From contig JADQBT010000014.1 of assembly GCA_016278485.1 (NCBI GenBank), positions 1-64,000 of the forward strand: DNA of 64,000 bases. The letters are read 5' to 3'. Position numbers and translations under genes: made by a program. How positions within the stretch are numbered: position 1 is the first letter of the stretch; every line of letters starts with the position of its first letter. Shown piece by piece: positions 3,152 to 14,129 of this stretch. The stretch comes from Halanaerobiales bacterium. Its GTDB lineage: Bacteria > Bacillota > Halanaerobiia > Halanaerobiales > Halanaerobiaceae. Under the pieces are notes generated by a model. The model ran no database searches. It saw only the letters and a program-made list of their open reading frames with translations, and had not been told where the DNA came from.

Positions 3152-4486
3152 ATGTCATTTATGTCTAATATGATGAGAAACGGTATGGCGGAAATGATGC
3201 AGGATATGTGGGAAAGAATGGTTAGTGATAATTATACTAGAAGTGATTTTGCTATGTATCCATTATTACAGAAAATAGGTATTAGAGCTTTAATCGAATC
3301 AAATTTACGTGCTTCTGATGGTGAAGTACTAGACCGACCCTTGGGAAGTCCAATAGTCCTATCTGAATGGGAAAAATTATTATTAAACCCTGTATTCTTA
3401 AATAAATTTCCTGTAGATGATAAAGAAGATATAGATACCTCTACCACTATTGGACCACAGGCTGAAAATCCATTAAATTTAGATATTCCTATAATTATTA
3501 CTGGTATGTCCTGGGGTACAGCCTTGAGTTTAAAAATGAAAAGAACATTAGCTAGGGCTGCTTCAAAGACAGGAACAGCAACTAATACTGGGGAATCTCC
3601 TTAACTTAAAGAAGAACGGGAAGATGCAGATTTGTTAATTGGACAGTATTCCCGGGGAAAATTAATTAAAAAACCTGAAGATTTAAAACAGTTAGATGCA
3701 ATTGAAATTCAATTGGGTCAGGGGGCACAGGCTGCTGCTCCGGTTTTCCAACCACCAGAATATATTGGAGAAGATCTACGCAAAAAAGCTAATATAAAAG
3801 AAGGGAAACCAGCAAAAGCACCTACCCGAATAAAAGGAGTAAATTCAATAGAAGAATTTAATAATCTAGTCACTGATTTAAAACAATATGGTGTCCCAGT
3901 AGGAGTAAAATTTGCTGCTACTGATTATATGGAAAAAGAACTTAAGATTATGGTAGATGCAGGTATTGATTATGTGGTAGTAGACGGGGCAGAAGCCGGT
4001 ACTCATGGTGGCCCTGCTATTTTGCAGGATGACATGGGATTGCCTACTTTAATAGCATTAGCCAGAACATCTAATTATCTAGAGGATCTGGATGTAAGGG
4101 ACAGGGTTAGTATTATCGTCGGAGGTGGTCTTACTACACCTGGTCATTTTTTGAAAGCAAAAGCACTGGGAGCTGATGCCATCTATATTGGAACAATCGC
4201 CCTAATGGCTTTACTCCAGACCCAGATGACAAAAACCTTACCATTTGAACCCCCGATGCAGATAGCATTATATACAGGTGAATTTAAAGAAGAATTAGAT
4301 ATTGACAAAGGAACCGAAAACCTTGCTAACTTTATTGATTCCTGTATTAAGGAAATGAAAATGGCCTGTTATTCGATGGGGAAAAAGTCTATTTATTCAG
4401 TAAATCGTTCTGACCTTTGTTCTGTTGATAAAGATCTAGCATCACTCTGTCGCATTAGATGGGCTTATCAGAGTGGAATTAAATAG
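3152..4486 (+). pseudogene. FMN-dependent glutamate-synthase-like protein, interrupted by one in-frame TAA
   Basis: Read through one stop, this is a 444-codon gene similar to GltS-type FMN-binding domains (glutamate synthase domain 2). The N-terminal part ends TATNTGESP, then TAA at 3602-3604, then LKEEREDADLLIGQYSRG continues in the same frame. Family features after the stop include EIQLGQGAQ, DGAEAGTHGGP, GGGLTTPGHFLKAKALGADA and the Cys-containing tail. Intact relatives carry an aromatic or similar residue where the TAA stands, so one base change explains it. SD GGAGG precedes ATG 3152. Either a recent nonsense mutation, a sequencing error or readthrough could apply. Everything else looks intact, which points to a recent event. 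Confidence 0.8.
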
Positions 4487-8588: not shown

Positions 8589-8662
8589 TATTCAATATCA
8601 TATTTTTCGAAATGCTATCTGGAATTTTGCTAAATTTGTCTTTACATAATAATTCCTAATAA

Positions 8663-9025
8663 TTAGAAGTGCATGGTTTTTTAATGTTTGATTAAGCGGC
8701 TGAAATGTATCCTGACGCAAAGCCAATATTTCATAGCGACAGATGGTTTTAATATACTGGAAATGTCTTTAAAAGCAAGATTGAAGAAGCTGAAATGACT
8801 CAAAGTATGTCTCGTGTTGGTAAATGTATTGATAATGGTCCTATGGAAGGGTTCTTCGGTATACTAAAGTCTGAAATGTTTTATGGAAAGAAGTATAAAT
8901 CTCTTGATGAATTAGCAGAAAAAATAGTTGAGTATATTGAATTTTATAATTAAGAAAGATTTCAAAAAAAATTAGGATGTATGGCTCCGATAGAATATCG
9001 CAACCATACATCCAGATGTGCATAA
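8663..9025 (+). pseudogene. IS3-family transposase (OrfB) 3' remnant
   Basis: Read through its stops, this encodes the C-terminal integrase part of an IS3-group transposase: AEMYPDAKPIFHSDRWF, then YTGNVF, MTQSMSRVGKCIDNGPMEGF, FGILKSEMFYGKKYKS and ERFQKKLGCMAPIEYRN. In-frame TAA codons occur at 8693, before YTG and after EFYN. The N-terminal half and OrfA are missing, and no inverted terminal repeats are evident. It is an old inactive relic. A shorter relic of a similar element lies at 11480-11557. Confidence 0.88.
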
Positions 9026-9203
9026 TATTTTAATTAATTAAATAGAAATTTTTTTGCAAATTATACTTGCATAATCAATTAAATTACTATATAATTTAAT
9101 ATTGATACAAATAACCCATTATATGATATATTACCTAACACTATATCATACTTAGTTATCTTTGTCAAATAATTATGCAAAATATTTGAGGGGGGTCAAG
9201 GAT

Positions 9204-9668
9204 ATGAACATACCCGAAATTTTTAACACCAAAAAATCTTATTTCAATAATATTATGGAAACAAACAACCAGTCACAAAGTTATGGGCTTGTTCTTAAAG
9301 AAAAAGATGTGATGGAAATATTAAATGAAAGGGAATCTGTACTTCAGGACCAAGGCAGAGTAGAATTAGAAATTGGAATTACTGTTAAGATAATAGAATT
9401 TCTCTGTTCTTCCCCTTATGTAGATAAAATCCATTATACCGAGGAGATTATTGAACTACAGGAAATATATTATTATCTAAAAACTGAAACAAATGATAAA
9501 ATTCCTGATAATAAATTATTAAAAATTATTTTTAACCTTTACAATAATCCTTGCAATGGCTCACTTGAGCTCTTAAAGGGTCGAGAAGCTGATAGGATTA
9601 TCAATGCTGTCAGATGTAATGAGTCCTTACCTGAAACAAAAGGGGGTTCTAATCAAGGTGAATTCTAA
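9204..9668 (+). CDS. Conserved unknown protein, DUF6323-like
   Basis: The 154-residue protein from ATG 9204 follows the strong site GAGGGGGG; an upstream in-frame ATG at 9162 has none. It lacks membrane segments and signal. The pattern YGLVLKEKDV, GRVELEIGITVKIIEF, SPYVDK and QEIYYYLKTETNDKIPDNKL matches what I recall of DUF6323. In many Bacillota this is followed by a DUF6179 gene, as here with an 11-base overlap. Function is unknown. The pair lies between two IS3 relics, so it may have arrived, or been bounded, by transposition. Confidence 0.7.
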   Translation: MNIPEIFNTKKSYFNNIMETNNQSQSYGLVLKEKDVMEILNERESVLQDQGRVELEIGITVKIIEFLCSSPYVDKIHYTEEIIELQEIYYYLKTETNDKIPDNKLLKIIFNLYNNPCNGSLELLKGREADRIINAVRCNESLPETKGGSNQGEF

Positions 9669-11073
9669 TAAAATAGATTTGTCAAGTTCCATAATAAATA
9701 ACGGTTCAAAAATAAAGAAAGAAAATCTAAATAAATATCACTACACCCTCTCTCTTCTTCAGAAAGCAAGAAGAAATAACCTTCTAGATGAGGGAATGAT
9801 AAAAAGCATACAACAGGAAATATTTATACTACTTAAAGAATTAATACAAAAGTATACTAAAGGTAAAAGCAGTTCTGTAAAAGTAGAAACAGCTGAGTTC
9901 CTCCAGTCTTCTATCCTTTACTCTATAGATATTAAACTATCCAGTGTTTCCAGTCCTGAAGATAGTTTGAATATAATTCAGGAAAAAAATATGAAAGAGA
10001 TTTATGAACAGGGTATTAATATAGTAGAGAGCCTTTTTGATGAAACTAAAAAACTATATGACCAGATAAAAGAAAACAGACTTAAAATACCTCTGGAAGT
10101 CTATAATTCATCAATTGACCAGGCTCTACCTGACTTTTTTTCAAATTATAATATAAAATACAATGCCAGTAATACTGTGACTATGATAGATTACCCGTTA
10201 ATCTTTGACGATATGAAGGTCCAGGGTGTGTTATATATCAAGAATTACCTGGAGACACTCAAACTGGAAACTACCTTCTGTAATTATTTTAATATCAAGG
10301 ATATAAGAGATCTTTTAAAAAAATATGGCCAGATATATAAAGTTGATTATAGAGAAATTCCAATTAACTTGTTTGAATTAGTATTGAACAATTCTATCTT
10401 CTCTACAATATTAGATGATAATATACTTAATCTAGAAATATCAATCTCTAAATACAGAATACTCCATGATTTATTGACAGAAATATCAGCTGAAAAAATT
10501 AAATCCCTGGTAAATAGAGCTGTCGGAAAGATTAATAAAGAATTATCTATTCAGGACCATAAATTAATCAACTATATAAAACAATATATACCGCTCTTTA
10601 TGGGGAGATTACTCAATTCTATAGAGAATGACTGTCTTTATAATATTACTCTGACAGATATTCAAACAGAAGAAAAAGATAAAATTGTTTTTTCATCAAG
10701 AAATTCTATGAATGATAATATTTTTCGCAGTATAGTAGAAAAAATAAGCAACTGTGCAAAAACAGATAATAAAATTAAAATAATAAATACCAAAATAAAA
10801 TCTATGGATGATTTTCTTGATATTTTATCTGCTGATTGTTTATATAATGATGAATTTTTTGCTCTTTTCCAGAATATTAGTGACATGGAATTAGCTGTAC
10901 TAGCTAAAATAATTTTCACTGAAGAAATAAGAGTAGACGAATTTGACCTATCCAGTCTAGAATCTAAAAATATTGAAGAAGAATGGCAACTCTATTATAT
11001 AAAATTTATTAAAAAATTGAACAAAAATCATCAAAAACAAATAATAAAGTTAATAAATAAGATTGAATTTTAA
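9658..11073 (+). CDS. Conserved unknown protein, DUF6179-like
   Basis: The 471-residue protein from GTG 9658 overlaps the upstream gene by 11 bases and lies 11 bases past AAAGGGGG. It is soluble and mostly helical, rich in Lys/Ile/Asn. The region TKGKSSSVKVETAEFLQSSI, the IDYPLIFDDMKVQGVLYI region and the repeated central helices resemble the DUF6179 family as I remember it. Translational coupling with the DUF6323-like gene suggests the two products act together. No enzymatic motif is seen. The long frame without frameshifts, in a decayed neighbourhood, argues that the pair is under selection. Confidence 0.7.
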   Translation: MNSNKIDLSSSIINNGSKIKKENLNKYHYTLSLLQKARRNNLLDEGMIKSIQQEIFILLKELIQKYTKGKSSSVKVETAEFLQSSILYSIDIKLSSVSSPEDSLNIIQEKNMKEIYEQGINIVESLFDETKKLYDQIKENRLKIPLEVYNSSIDQALPDFFSNYNIKYNASNTVTMIDYPLIFDDMKVQGVLYIKNYLETLKLETTFCNYFNIKDIRDLLKKYGQIYKVDYREIPINLFELVLNNSIFSTILDDNILNLEISISKYRILHDLLTEISAEKIKSLVNRAVGKINKELSIQDHKLINYIKQYIPLFMGRLLNSIENDCLYNITLTDIQTEEKDKIVFSSRNSMNDNIFRSIVEKISNCAKTDNKIKIINTKIKSMDDFLDILSADCLYNDEFFALFQNISDMELAVLAKIIFTEEIRVDEFDLSSLESKNIEEEWQLYYIKFIKKLNKNHQKQIIKLINKIEF

Positions 11074-11095
11074 TAAGAAATTCAAACAATTTTTT

Positions 11096-11277
11096 CTAGC
11101 CTAGAGCCCAAACATTTCCGCAAGGTCACCCACTGCTAACGTTCCCCAGAGAATAGCAAGACCCAAGATGATTCTTACTACAAATGGAATTGAGAAACCA
11201 AACCTTTTCTTGAGAATGATATTTACCGGAGAAAAATAGACAAAAGATAGAAGAAGGTAAAAAATTCACGGAACTTA
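11096..11277 (-). pseudogene. Truncated copy of the 13860-14129 membrane protein gene
   Basis: The stretch matches the 3' two thirds of the intact gene at 13860-14129 almost base for base, including the shared ending GDLAEMFGL. The frame is broken by TGA at 11266-11268, where the intact copy has Gly (in HPVPGIF), and the 5' third is unrelated. The similarity also extends a few bases past the stop (ttttttctagcc). It is a partial duplicate that has lost its start. Confidence 0.88.
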
Positions 11278-11479
11278 GACATAAGAAAAGCATTATATTC
11301 TAAACAATCAAGAGCAATAGCAGGTGCAGTCCATGCTTTATGCAAAACTGGATTATTACCTGAAATATAAAAATTATGACTCACCTTTACATTCAAACAA
11401 TTCTTCTTCATCATGATTCCAGATATTTGCTCCACCTCATATTAACTAAACTTATCAGAATCAATCTACCTTTTGAAGA

Positions 11480-11557
11480 ATTGATACTGCAGGTATGATT
11501 CAAAGCATGTCTAGAGTTGGAAGATGTAAAGATAAATGGTCCAATGAGAGGATTTTT
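11480..11557 (+). pseudogene. IS3-family transposase fragment
   Basis: About 75 bases match the MTQSMSRVGKCIDNGPMEGF segment of the relic at 8663-9025, here as MIQSMSRVGRCKD, then a one-base insertion (GATAAATGG for GATAATGG), then a fragment of the following Pro-Met-Gly-Phe-like region. It is too short to function. It and the larger relic, in the same orientation, bracket the DUF6323/DUF6179-like pair. Confidence 0.75.
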
Positions 11558-11569
11558 ATGCATTAATTT

Positions 11570-11595
11570 AGGGATAGCTTAAGCTATCCCTTTTT
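11570..11595 (+). terminator. Stem-loop terminator
   Basis: GGGATAGCTTAAGCTATCCC is a perfect palindrome followed by TTTTTC on the plus strand. It abuts the stop codon of the convergent YcaQ-like gene. The sequence AATTTAGGGATAGC is repeated at 17252-17265. Confidence 0.75.
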
Positions 11596-12846
11596 CTAAA
11601 CTTTTTCTGTTAAACCTCCGTGTGCTTCCTCATGAGTTATTCCCTCTAACACTTTTCCACTATAACATATTGAATCTAAATTTAAATATTCTTGAAATTT
11701 ATTCATACACTTAGAAAGTGCCTCTTTCATTTCATCTGTTACAACTACTCCATCTTCCCACCACCACTTCTTAATTACTAATTCACTTTTTTTATTATTA
11801 CAGATCGGCTCACAGCGGGCTATAAGTTTATCACGGTAAAGAACTGGTAAAACATAATAACCATATTCTCTTTCTTGTACAGGTTTATAAACTTCCCAAA
11901 CATACTCAAAGTCGAATAATTCCTTTATTAATTTTCTATCCCATAATAAATTATCGAGAGGAGCTATTAAGGCTGCTTGATCACTTACCTGTATTTTATT
12001 ATCAATTGCCTTTTTTAATAATAATTTCTCTTCAGCAGGTATATATAAAGGATGTTTTATTTCCTCTACGTTTAATGCTAAAATTTCATTTCTTTTCAGT
12101 AATCTATCAATTGTATCCATTAATAATTTTTTCTTTAGTCCCATGATCCCCAACCAGGCAGTACTCCCCGATAATGGCCATATCATCCCTATACTACAAA
12201 TCCTTCTTTTTACATGCCAGTCATAGTATCTATCATCAGTCTCATTAGGATCTCCTAACGATATTATTTTATTTGGTATATGTTTTTTACTAAAGTCATA
12301 TACCTTTCTTGTACCAATTCTCTCGTGTACTATTAATTCTCCCCAAGAATACATACTATCTAATGCAGCCCTAGCAACCCTTGTTGGTGCCCAGGACCAG
12401 TCAACTATTTCATCAAAATCTAAATCCAGGGAAGATATAGGTCCTTTTTTATGTAGTAAATCTCTTACAGCAGGCAAAACCTCCTTAACACCCTTTTTAT
12501 TGGAATATCGCTGAAAAGCCCTCTTACGATATTTACTGAAAAAAGGCCAGTCCTCTACAGAATATATAGACTGGTTTTTATCCCAGCCATCCAATAATTT
12601 TCGTTCATCATATAACAATTCTTCAAGCATCTGTTTTCTATAATTTTTTATCCGAGATTGCAATACCAGATGAGGATTTTCCCCCACTTTGTTTAAAGGA
12701 TCAAATTGAATACATCCTACCTTTTTAATATAATTTAAAATTCCTTTTTTGCCGTTTAGCTTCCTAACTGGAAGTAATCCTTGATATGCTAATATAAATT
12801 GTCTCGCCTGTTTCTTAGTCAAATATATTGAACTAATTTCACACAT
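11596..12846 (-). CDS. YcaQ/AlkX-like winged-helix protein (HTH_42 family)
   Basis: The 416-residue protein matches the HTH_42 family that includes the interstrand-crosslink DNA glycosylase YcaQ/AlkX. Seen features are the N-terminal ARQFILAYQGL, CIQFDPLNKVGENPHLVLQS, the LLDGWDKNQSIY-DWPFF segment, and the C-terminal APLDNLLWDRKL and WEVYKPVQEREYGYYVLPVL. A role in repair of crosslinked or alkylated DNA is inferred from the family. ATG 12846 lies immediately after AAAGGAG, an unusually short spacing, so the exact start is uncertain. No operon partner. Confidence 0.78.
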   Translation of the reverse strand: MCEISSIYLTKKQARQFILAYQGLLPVRKLNGKKGILNYIKKVGCIQFDPLNKVGENPHLVLQSRIKNYRKQMLEELLYDERKLLDGWDKNQSIYSVEDWPFFSKYRKRAFQRYSNKKGVKEVLPAVRDLLHKKGPISSLDLDFDEIVDWSWAPTRVARAALDSMYSWGELIVHERIGTRKVYDFSKKHIPNKIISLGDPNETDDRYYDWHVKRRICSIGMIWPLSGSTAWLGIMGLKKKLLMDTIDRLLKRNEILALNVEEIKHPLYIPAEEKLLLKKAIDNKIQVSDQAALIAPLDNLLWDRKLIKELFDFEYVWEVYKPVQEREYGYYVLPVLYRDKLIARCEPICNNKKSELVIKKWWWEDGVVVTDEMKEALSKCMNKFQEYLNLDSICYSGKVLEGITHEEAHGGLTEKV

Positions 12847-13808: not shown

Positions 13809-13855
13809 AATGGTACCGAACGTGGCTTTTTCCCGTATTCGATACCATTTTTTTC
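13809..13855. terminator. Dispersed stem-loop element, copy D (terminator-like)
   Basis: ATGGTACCGAA (13810-13820) pairs with TTCGATACCAT (13838-13848) with one mismatch. The loop CGTGGCTTTTTCCCGTA resembles that of copy C. TTTTTTT follows on the plus strand and TTTTGATTTTG on the minus strand, so it can end transcription of the minus gene at 13860-14129. Confidence 0.7.
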
Positions 13856-13859
13856 TAGC

Positions 13860-14129
13860 CTAAAGCCCAAACATTTCCGCAAGGTCACCCACAGCTAACG
13901 TTCCCCAGAGAATAGCAAGACCCAAGATGATTCTTACTACAATTGGAATCGAGAAACCAAACCTTTTCTTGAGAAAAGTATTTGCTGGAGAAAAATAAAG
14001 AAAAGAAAGAAGAAGGTAAAAAATACCAGGAACGGGGTGCACCAAAAACAGATTCAATACACCGATCACAATGAAAGCTACGCCAAATATCCAATTGATT
14101 ATCTTACAAACATTAGATTTATTATTCAT
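13860..14129 (-). CDS. Small membrane protein of unknown function
   Basis: The 89-residue product has three hydrophobic segments (about residues 10-28, 31-47 and 62-80) and a basic loop (LKKRFGF). ATG 14129 follows AAAGGAG. It lies 17 bases behind the PadR-linked permease-like gene and is probably the third gene of that operon. A truncated copy at 11096-11277 shows that this gene was duplicated locally. I do not recognise the family. Confidence 0.75.
   Translation of the reverse strand: MNNKSNVCKIINWIFGVAFIVIGVLNLFLVHPVPGIFYLLLSFLYFSPANTFLKKRFGFSIPIVVRIILGLAILWGTLAVGDLAEMFGL

Follow-up and report, generated by a model that had tools for sequence, protein, structure and literature searches.

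The locus at positions 8663-11557 of the window, by which we mean the whole 64,000-nucleotide stretch of Halanaerobiales DNA analysed here, raises the question of what purpose is served by two conserved proteins, DUF6323 and DUF6179, for which Pfam records no function. The main clue to this purpose is a pair of opposed sigma-A promoters upstream of their operon. By analogy with a published rifampicin alarm, we lean on balance towards reading the pair as a two-protein complex that is induced by RNA polymerase inhibitors and would protect the polymerase or neutralise the drug, and we place more confidence in the promoter architecture, as read from the DNA, than in this reading as a whole. The features of the locus are as follows.

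8705-9001, plus strand: relic of an IS3 transposase (C-terminal 99 codons, two in-frame stops), outside the unit of the pair
9067-9095, plus strand: candidate sense promoter, TTGCAT-17-TATAAT, facing the antisense promoter
9168-9140, minus strand: antisense sigma-A promoter, TTGACA (9168-9163), 17 nt, TATAGT (9145-9140), with extended TG
9204-9668, plus strand: DUF6323 gene, 154 aa, PF19848 with E 1.2e-41, SD GAGGGGGG at 9188-9195
9658-11073, plus strand: DUF6179 gene, 471 aa from GTG 9658, PF19677 with E 1.3e-83
11453-11563, plus strand: second, shorter IS3 relic, 37 codons, outside the unit of the pair

Both genes of the operon are undamaged in the window. The first-pass annotation had described an intact, overlapping DUF6323/DUF6179-like pair of conserved unknowns, and the HMM search bore this out, matching both Pfam families far over their curated cut-offs: the first product reached 141.8 bits against PF19848 (cut-off 30.6; residues 16-140 covered) and the second 280.8 bits against PF19677 in a full-length match (cut-off 25). 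According to a genome-wide profile search, the host carries one copy of each. The DUF6179 frame is already open from ATG 9604, and AAGGGGG at 9640-9646 precedes GTG 9658, which from the sequence appears the likelier start of the two. With this start DUF6179 overlaps DUF6323 (stop codon at 9666-9668) by 11 nt, which confirms both the overlap and the translational coupling proposed in the first pass.

The strict pairing that had also been claimed holds. Whenever neither gene nor contig is truncated, DUF6323 and DUF6179 are direct neighbours on the same strand in every set examined, and they were not found separated. Among 299 genomes evenly drawn from the host's phylum, DUF6323 was matched in 15 and DUF6179 in 16, with both present at adjacent coordinates in 14; the unpaired cases are a DUF6323 broken by two stops (G195) and a 46-residue fragment (G228), together with one genome in which DUF6179 begins at the contig end (G134). 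DUF6179 was found in 4 of 59 genomes of the host's class, adjoined by DUF6323 in all four. A sequence search gave 56 named loci, and at 53 of them DUF6323 lies directly upstream of DUF6179 on the same strand, the three exceptions being two loci that begin at or near a contig edge inside the gene (L093, L108) and one fragment (L112). Two further classes added 28 new loci, and DUF6179 was downstream in all 27 with room for it. The gaps between the genes range from -41 to +61 nt, a range that excludes L042, where DUF6179 is frameshifted, and a natural fusion in Clostridium oryzae DSM 28571, where both domains lie in one ORF (L074 5560-7386). In addition, the DUF6323 and DUF6179 distance matrices are correlated (r 0.76 over 51 loci; maximum 0.18 in 200 permutations), a value to which shared descent contributes. 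One genome (G351) has two DUF6323 copies on different contigs (L122, L129), each with DUF6179 and an antisense promoter.

The surroundings of the pair are far less constant. The neighbour analysis returned no family that recurs across genera except common kinase and ABC types, and no defence-island neighbours; HtpG and MerR neighbours, which had stood out early on, were traced to a single family. Searched against 50,697 phage records, the window DUF6179 matched none, and the viral contigs searched gave no relative. Against 72,556 plasmid records the same query matched one from Acetoanaerobium and five megaplasmids of Enterococcus raffinosus. In L053, L082, L085 and L111, which are one Halanaerobiales record and three Clostridioides records, a gene upstream of the pair codes for a conserved unknown protein (cluster c9, e.g. 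L111).

The first pass had further suggested a two-component machine. Pairing, translational coupling and above all the fusion in C. oryzae support a physical machine of this kind; the complex itself is predicted and likely. AlphaFold models of the window DUF6179 (pLDDT 90.9, pTM 0.70) and of the C. oryzae fusion (pLDDT 92.5, pTM 0.73) are confident and all helical. Foldseek found no match at E 0.001 for DUF6179 or the fusion among PDB folds, nor for the fusion among viral models. Hits obtained with VIA-align, for residues 348-471 of DUF6179 (Z 5.2; ArpC5, a spliceosome chain and FliG) and for DUF6323 (Z 6.8, on designed helical repeats), were at the level of common arrangements and were set aside, as were PDB sequence-profile matches, which were short and fell on repeat proteins or on unrelated ones. 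No weak relative recurred when 54 members of DUF6179 and 16 of DUF6323 were scanned against Pfam. Neither protein matched NCBIfam, whose families include that of HelD (NF041464), at E up to 1; five proteins compared with the PADLOC anti-phage models (library of 2023) matched no family at the same limit, and PHROGs offered nothing better than E 0.03. No fold or sequence link to HelD or to a drug-modifying enzyme was found for DUF6323 or DUF6179, and no paper in the literature searched names either family.

The upstream region, whose opposed promoters the first pass had not noticed, was more informative. A k-mer scan of the regions upstream of the pair yielded, as enriched words, those of a sigma-A promoter in reverse complement. 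We therefore report promoter calls for 74 non-redundant loci (more than 10% DUF6323 DNA difference; chosen from 98 that have 200 nt or more of upstream sequence), counting as antisense a promoter with a reverse-strand score of at least 11 within 130 nt of the DUF6323 start codon. A near-consensus antisense promoter, TTGACA-17-TGnTATAnT, was present at 64 of the 74 loci, compared with 12 of 242 background regions, taken from upstream of the other genes at these loci (tandem neighbour, 2 of 126; divergent neighbour, 10 of 116), and with 1.2% of dinucleotide shuffles on average (maximum 4.1%). Across 47 aligned loci its boxes hardly change (TT 100%, G 97%, A 100%, C 95%; extended TG 97%), whereas the DNA outside them varies. 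In a locus set fetched after the discovery, the first scoring detected the reverse promoter at 21 of 27; without nine near-duplicates of earlier loci the count was 14 of 18. The ten loci where it is absent at threshold are L045, L051, L052, L064, L067, L068, L080, L106, L132 and L139; three of these (L051, L064, L106) carry a copy further out, 184-205 nt upstream, and L067 has one whose -10 box, judged by eye, is poor.

A sense promoter faces the antisense one at 51 of the 74 loci and in 1 of the 242 background regions, and slightly laxer rules recover a convergent pair at 55 of 74 and 3 of 242, respectively. In 54 such pairs the gap between the two -10 boxes is 20-35 or 37-47 nt, so that two polymerases would run into each other or overlap where they start, and the consensus score, which is a score and not a strength, is higher for the antisense promoter in 45, with six ties. 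Furthermore, a terminator in the antisense direction is predicted within 180 nt at 43 of 64 loci, as against 141 of 1210 matched background draws. The same holds for loci with a divergent neighbour (14 of 18; matched background 63 of 580 draws), and since the neighbouring gene is divergent there, these 14 terminators would not be the upstream gene's own. Drawn as it is from comparison of sequences, the cis-regulatory evidence is statistically very strong. Other regulatory signals were less conspicuous: upstream motifs for sporulation, LexA, CtsR, HrcA, CodY, Fur, Rex, sigma-54 and sigma-B showed no clear enrichment, no relevant Rfam or RNA family was found at these regions, and raised counts of sigma-E and sigma-K motifs are attributed to the AT-rich opposed promoters. 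An invertible promoter was considered and dropped, no recombinase being conserved nearby.

In the window, the antisense promoter is the best promoter within 8640-11600 (11 of 12 matches) and the one occurrence of the family pattern in the 64 kb (expected 0.02). The candidate sense promoter has a weak -35 box (3 of 6), lies under the scan threshold and was seen by laxer rules; the gap between the two -10 boxes is 44 nt, which equals the spacing of one family class. No antisense-direction terminator was found in the window. The family pattern occurs 13 times genome-wide in the host, and at 10 of the 12 other copies an ORF of 80 aa or longer follows within 350 nt, read in the promoter's direction, so that the pattern is one which this organism genuinely uses as a promoter. 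Another copy (L181; G000:C9:160052-160080) is followed by no ORF of that length in its own direction; it precedes, by 142 nt, a gene of 453 codons or more that runs the opposite way and may be a second gene with an antisense promoter.

Two departures from the common layout deserve mention. The sense promoter is the gene-proximal one, back to back with the antisense promoter and sharing its -35 region, in L124 (by score) and in L043 and L126 (by eye); L037, L128 and L131 fit this arrangement more loosely. In Enterococcus (L120) the antisense promoter is kept (TTGAAA-17-TATTAT with TG) and is followed by a strong hairpin terminator, and no sense promoter was recognised in the upstream region. 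Behind this promoter and its hairpin, the Enterococcus raffinosus plasmid encodes a 48-aa hydrophobic ORF on the minus strand (L120 5090-5236; WP_010743530.1).

The convergent layout matches the dual-promoter rifampicin alarm of helD and pps in Bacillus subtilis, as described in the main text of Sudzinova et al. 2026 (PMC12802891), and it is this match that leads us to propose a protective function induced by polymerase inhibitors. In the published system, the antisense promoter, which has an extended -10, is the stronger of the two; it keeps a slow sense promoter silent and gives rise to a terminated antisense RNA of about 90 nt; sub-inhibitory rifampicin leaves polymerase arrested on the antisense promoter, and the sense promoter is thereby freed (PMC12802891). 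For the pair studied here we infer silencing, induction by polymerase inhibitors and a protective role along the same lines. DUF6323 and DUF6179 would be two subunits of one helical complex, encoded by a self-contained operon that would be governed by the two opposed sigma-A promoters. The strong antisense promoter directly before the gene would normally silence the weaker sense promoter, and its short RNA would stop at the terminator. A rifamycin-type inhibitor would arrest polymerase on the busy antisense promoter, the sense promoter would be freed and the pair would be made; its product would then most likely shield RNA polymerase, or else neutralise the inhibitor. A more specific version, which we offer as tentative, is that the pair is a new two-subunit helical guardian of RNA polymerase, unrelated to HelD, which would sense polymerase-targeting antibiotics or phage inhibitors through the polymerase at the opposed promoters and then protect or rescue the enzyme, in anaerobic Bacillota that include cryptic lineages of Clostridioides and on an Enterococcus megaplasmid. 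Counted against an alarm of the helD/pps type are the ten of 74 loci without an antisense promoter at threshold, the unrecognised sense promoter in Enterococcus, -10 gaps that mostly fall short of the published motif, the missing link of the pair to HelD or a drug-modifying enzyme by fold or sequence, its distribution across genomes independent of HelD and, in the window itself, the weak sense -35 box and the lack of a detected antisense terminator. The back-to-back lineage also misfits the published model, because an arrested polymerase would there block the operon instead of freeing it, and mutual exclusion itself may thus be what is selected.

This lineage keeps alive a different explanation, namely that the opposed promoters are a general device for tight silencing or a bistable switch, and that the pair has a costly or toxic stress function unrelated to antibiotics, for instance one related to phage or starvation, expressed in few cells or when the sigma-A polymerase is disturbed. 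We regard this as conceivable and rather unlikely. The back-to-back variant would retain mutual exclusion and lose the published release mechanism, and the sporadic presence of the pair (both genes in 14 of 299 genomes) and its relics in G195 and G228 would be in keeping with such a function; however, the pair has no PADLOC match, no significant PHROG match, no phage record and no defence-island neighbours, and its layout fits an antibiotic alarm that has been published (PMC12802891). Lower still do we rate the idea that the antisense promoter is there for a small RNA with an action of its own, whether in trans or through pairing to the operon mRNA at its 5' end. A terminator close behind the antisense promoter at 43 of 64 loci and the overlap of the first nucleotides of the two RNAs would agree with it, but no sequence beyond the promoters is conserved across the family and no Rfam match was obtained; we consider it improbable.

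The flanks of the pair bear on its origin. The first pass had noticed two similar IS3 relics in the same orientation on either side, which is correct: the upstream relic aligns to positions 271-369 of the IS3 profile (E 4.8e-32), the downstream one to positions 287-323, weakly when taken alone (E 0.067), and their mutual similarity is above chance (alignment score 90 versus a maximum of 65 in 100 shuffles). These relics, together with the absence of the pair from close relatives of the host, could suggest that an old IS3 composite transposon once carried the two genes as cargo, as the first pass had also proposed. Such an element needs two complete copies or matching ends, yet there are only fragments of 99 and 37 codons and the two flanks share no repeat of 10 nt or longer, so that the composite reading finds no support; moreover, the nearest relative of the window pair in the tree comes from the host's own order (L052, 54% identity). 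We consider this origin very improbable. Separately, a 188-bp direct duplication (91% identical) links 11087-11274 with 13846-14033: part of the small gene 13860-14129 (minus strand) recurs directly behind DUF6179, which indicates that the downstream flank has been rearranged. Elsewhere in the window, the neighbouring ORFs 3152-3604 and 3632-4486 correspond to separate parts of a 467-aa protein that is intact in L036 (cluster c15), and the gene at 3152-4486 looks split by a frameshift or stop.

Induction by polymerase inhibitors is the reading that we carry forward, and it turns a pair of DUFs for which no literature was found into a concrete, testable hypothesis of a polymerase-inhibitor response in anaerobic Bacillota. 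If it is true, an unrelated effector would be added to the rifampicin-alarm principle, and the principle would be ancient and strongly selected, its boxes staying near consensus while the surrounding DNA changes. The pair would also be a determinant of tolerance that has gone unrecognised, with Clostridioides and Enterococcus among its carriers. In their main text, the authors of PMC12802891 consider that uncharacterised proteins encoded behind promoters of this type may represent novel mechanisms of rifampicin resistance, and they suggest trying other polymerase inhibitors on the alarm, and the pair would allow both questions to be tested. The helD/pps alarm is already published (PMC12802891); the opposed promoters upstream of DUF6323/DUF6179 are new here. 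The main text of that paper contains no mention of 'DUF', and DUF6323 may stand in its supplementary tables, which lie outside this search.

Compared with helD/pps as described there (PMC12802891), the DUF6323 gene likewise has, at 51 of 74 loci, two convergent sigma-A promoters before it, within 300 bp upstream, and its antisense promoter is likewise the one nearest the gene, with an extended -10. A greater strength of the antisense promoter is suggested here by consensus score, and a short terminated antisense RNA would be expected from the terminators predicted at 43 of 64 DUF6323 loci. The products differ, as does the antisense spacer (17 nt versus 19 nt in helD/pps); helD and pps respond to rifampicin, a response that is proposed for the pair. 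The -10 gaps of the pair, 20-47 nt, are mostly below the 45-55 of the B. subtilis motif; the authors' cross-genome filter of 45-100 bp, for which the main text does not state how the distance is counted, could thus miss many DUF6323 loci (PMC12802891). When the same scan was applied to helD loci (30 fetched, 6 skipped for want of an in-frame start codon), the convergent layout appeared in 3 of 24 (G022, G219 and G101, with gaps of 40, 48 and 49), which is a positive control for this kind of arrangement. Co-occurrence with HelD or exclusion of it gave no signal, HelD being present in 2 of 14 genomes with the pair and in 46 of 285 others. Unlike HelD (NF041464), to which neither protein has a sequence match, the pair consists of two proteins of about 154 and 471 aa; like HelD, it has a proposed role in polymerase protection, and it shares with those three helD loci the same promoter layout.
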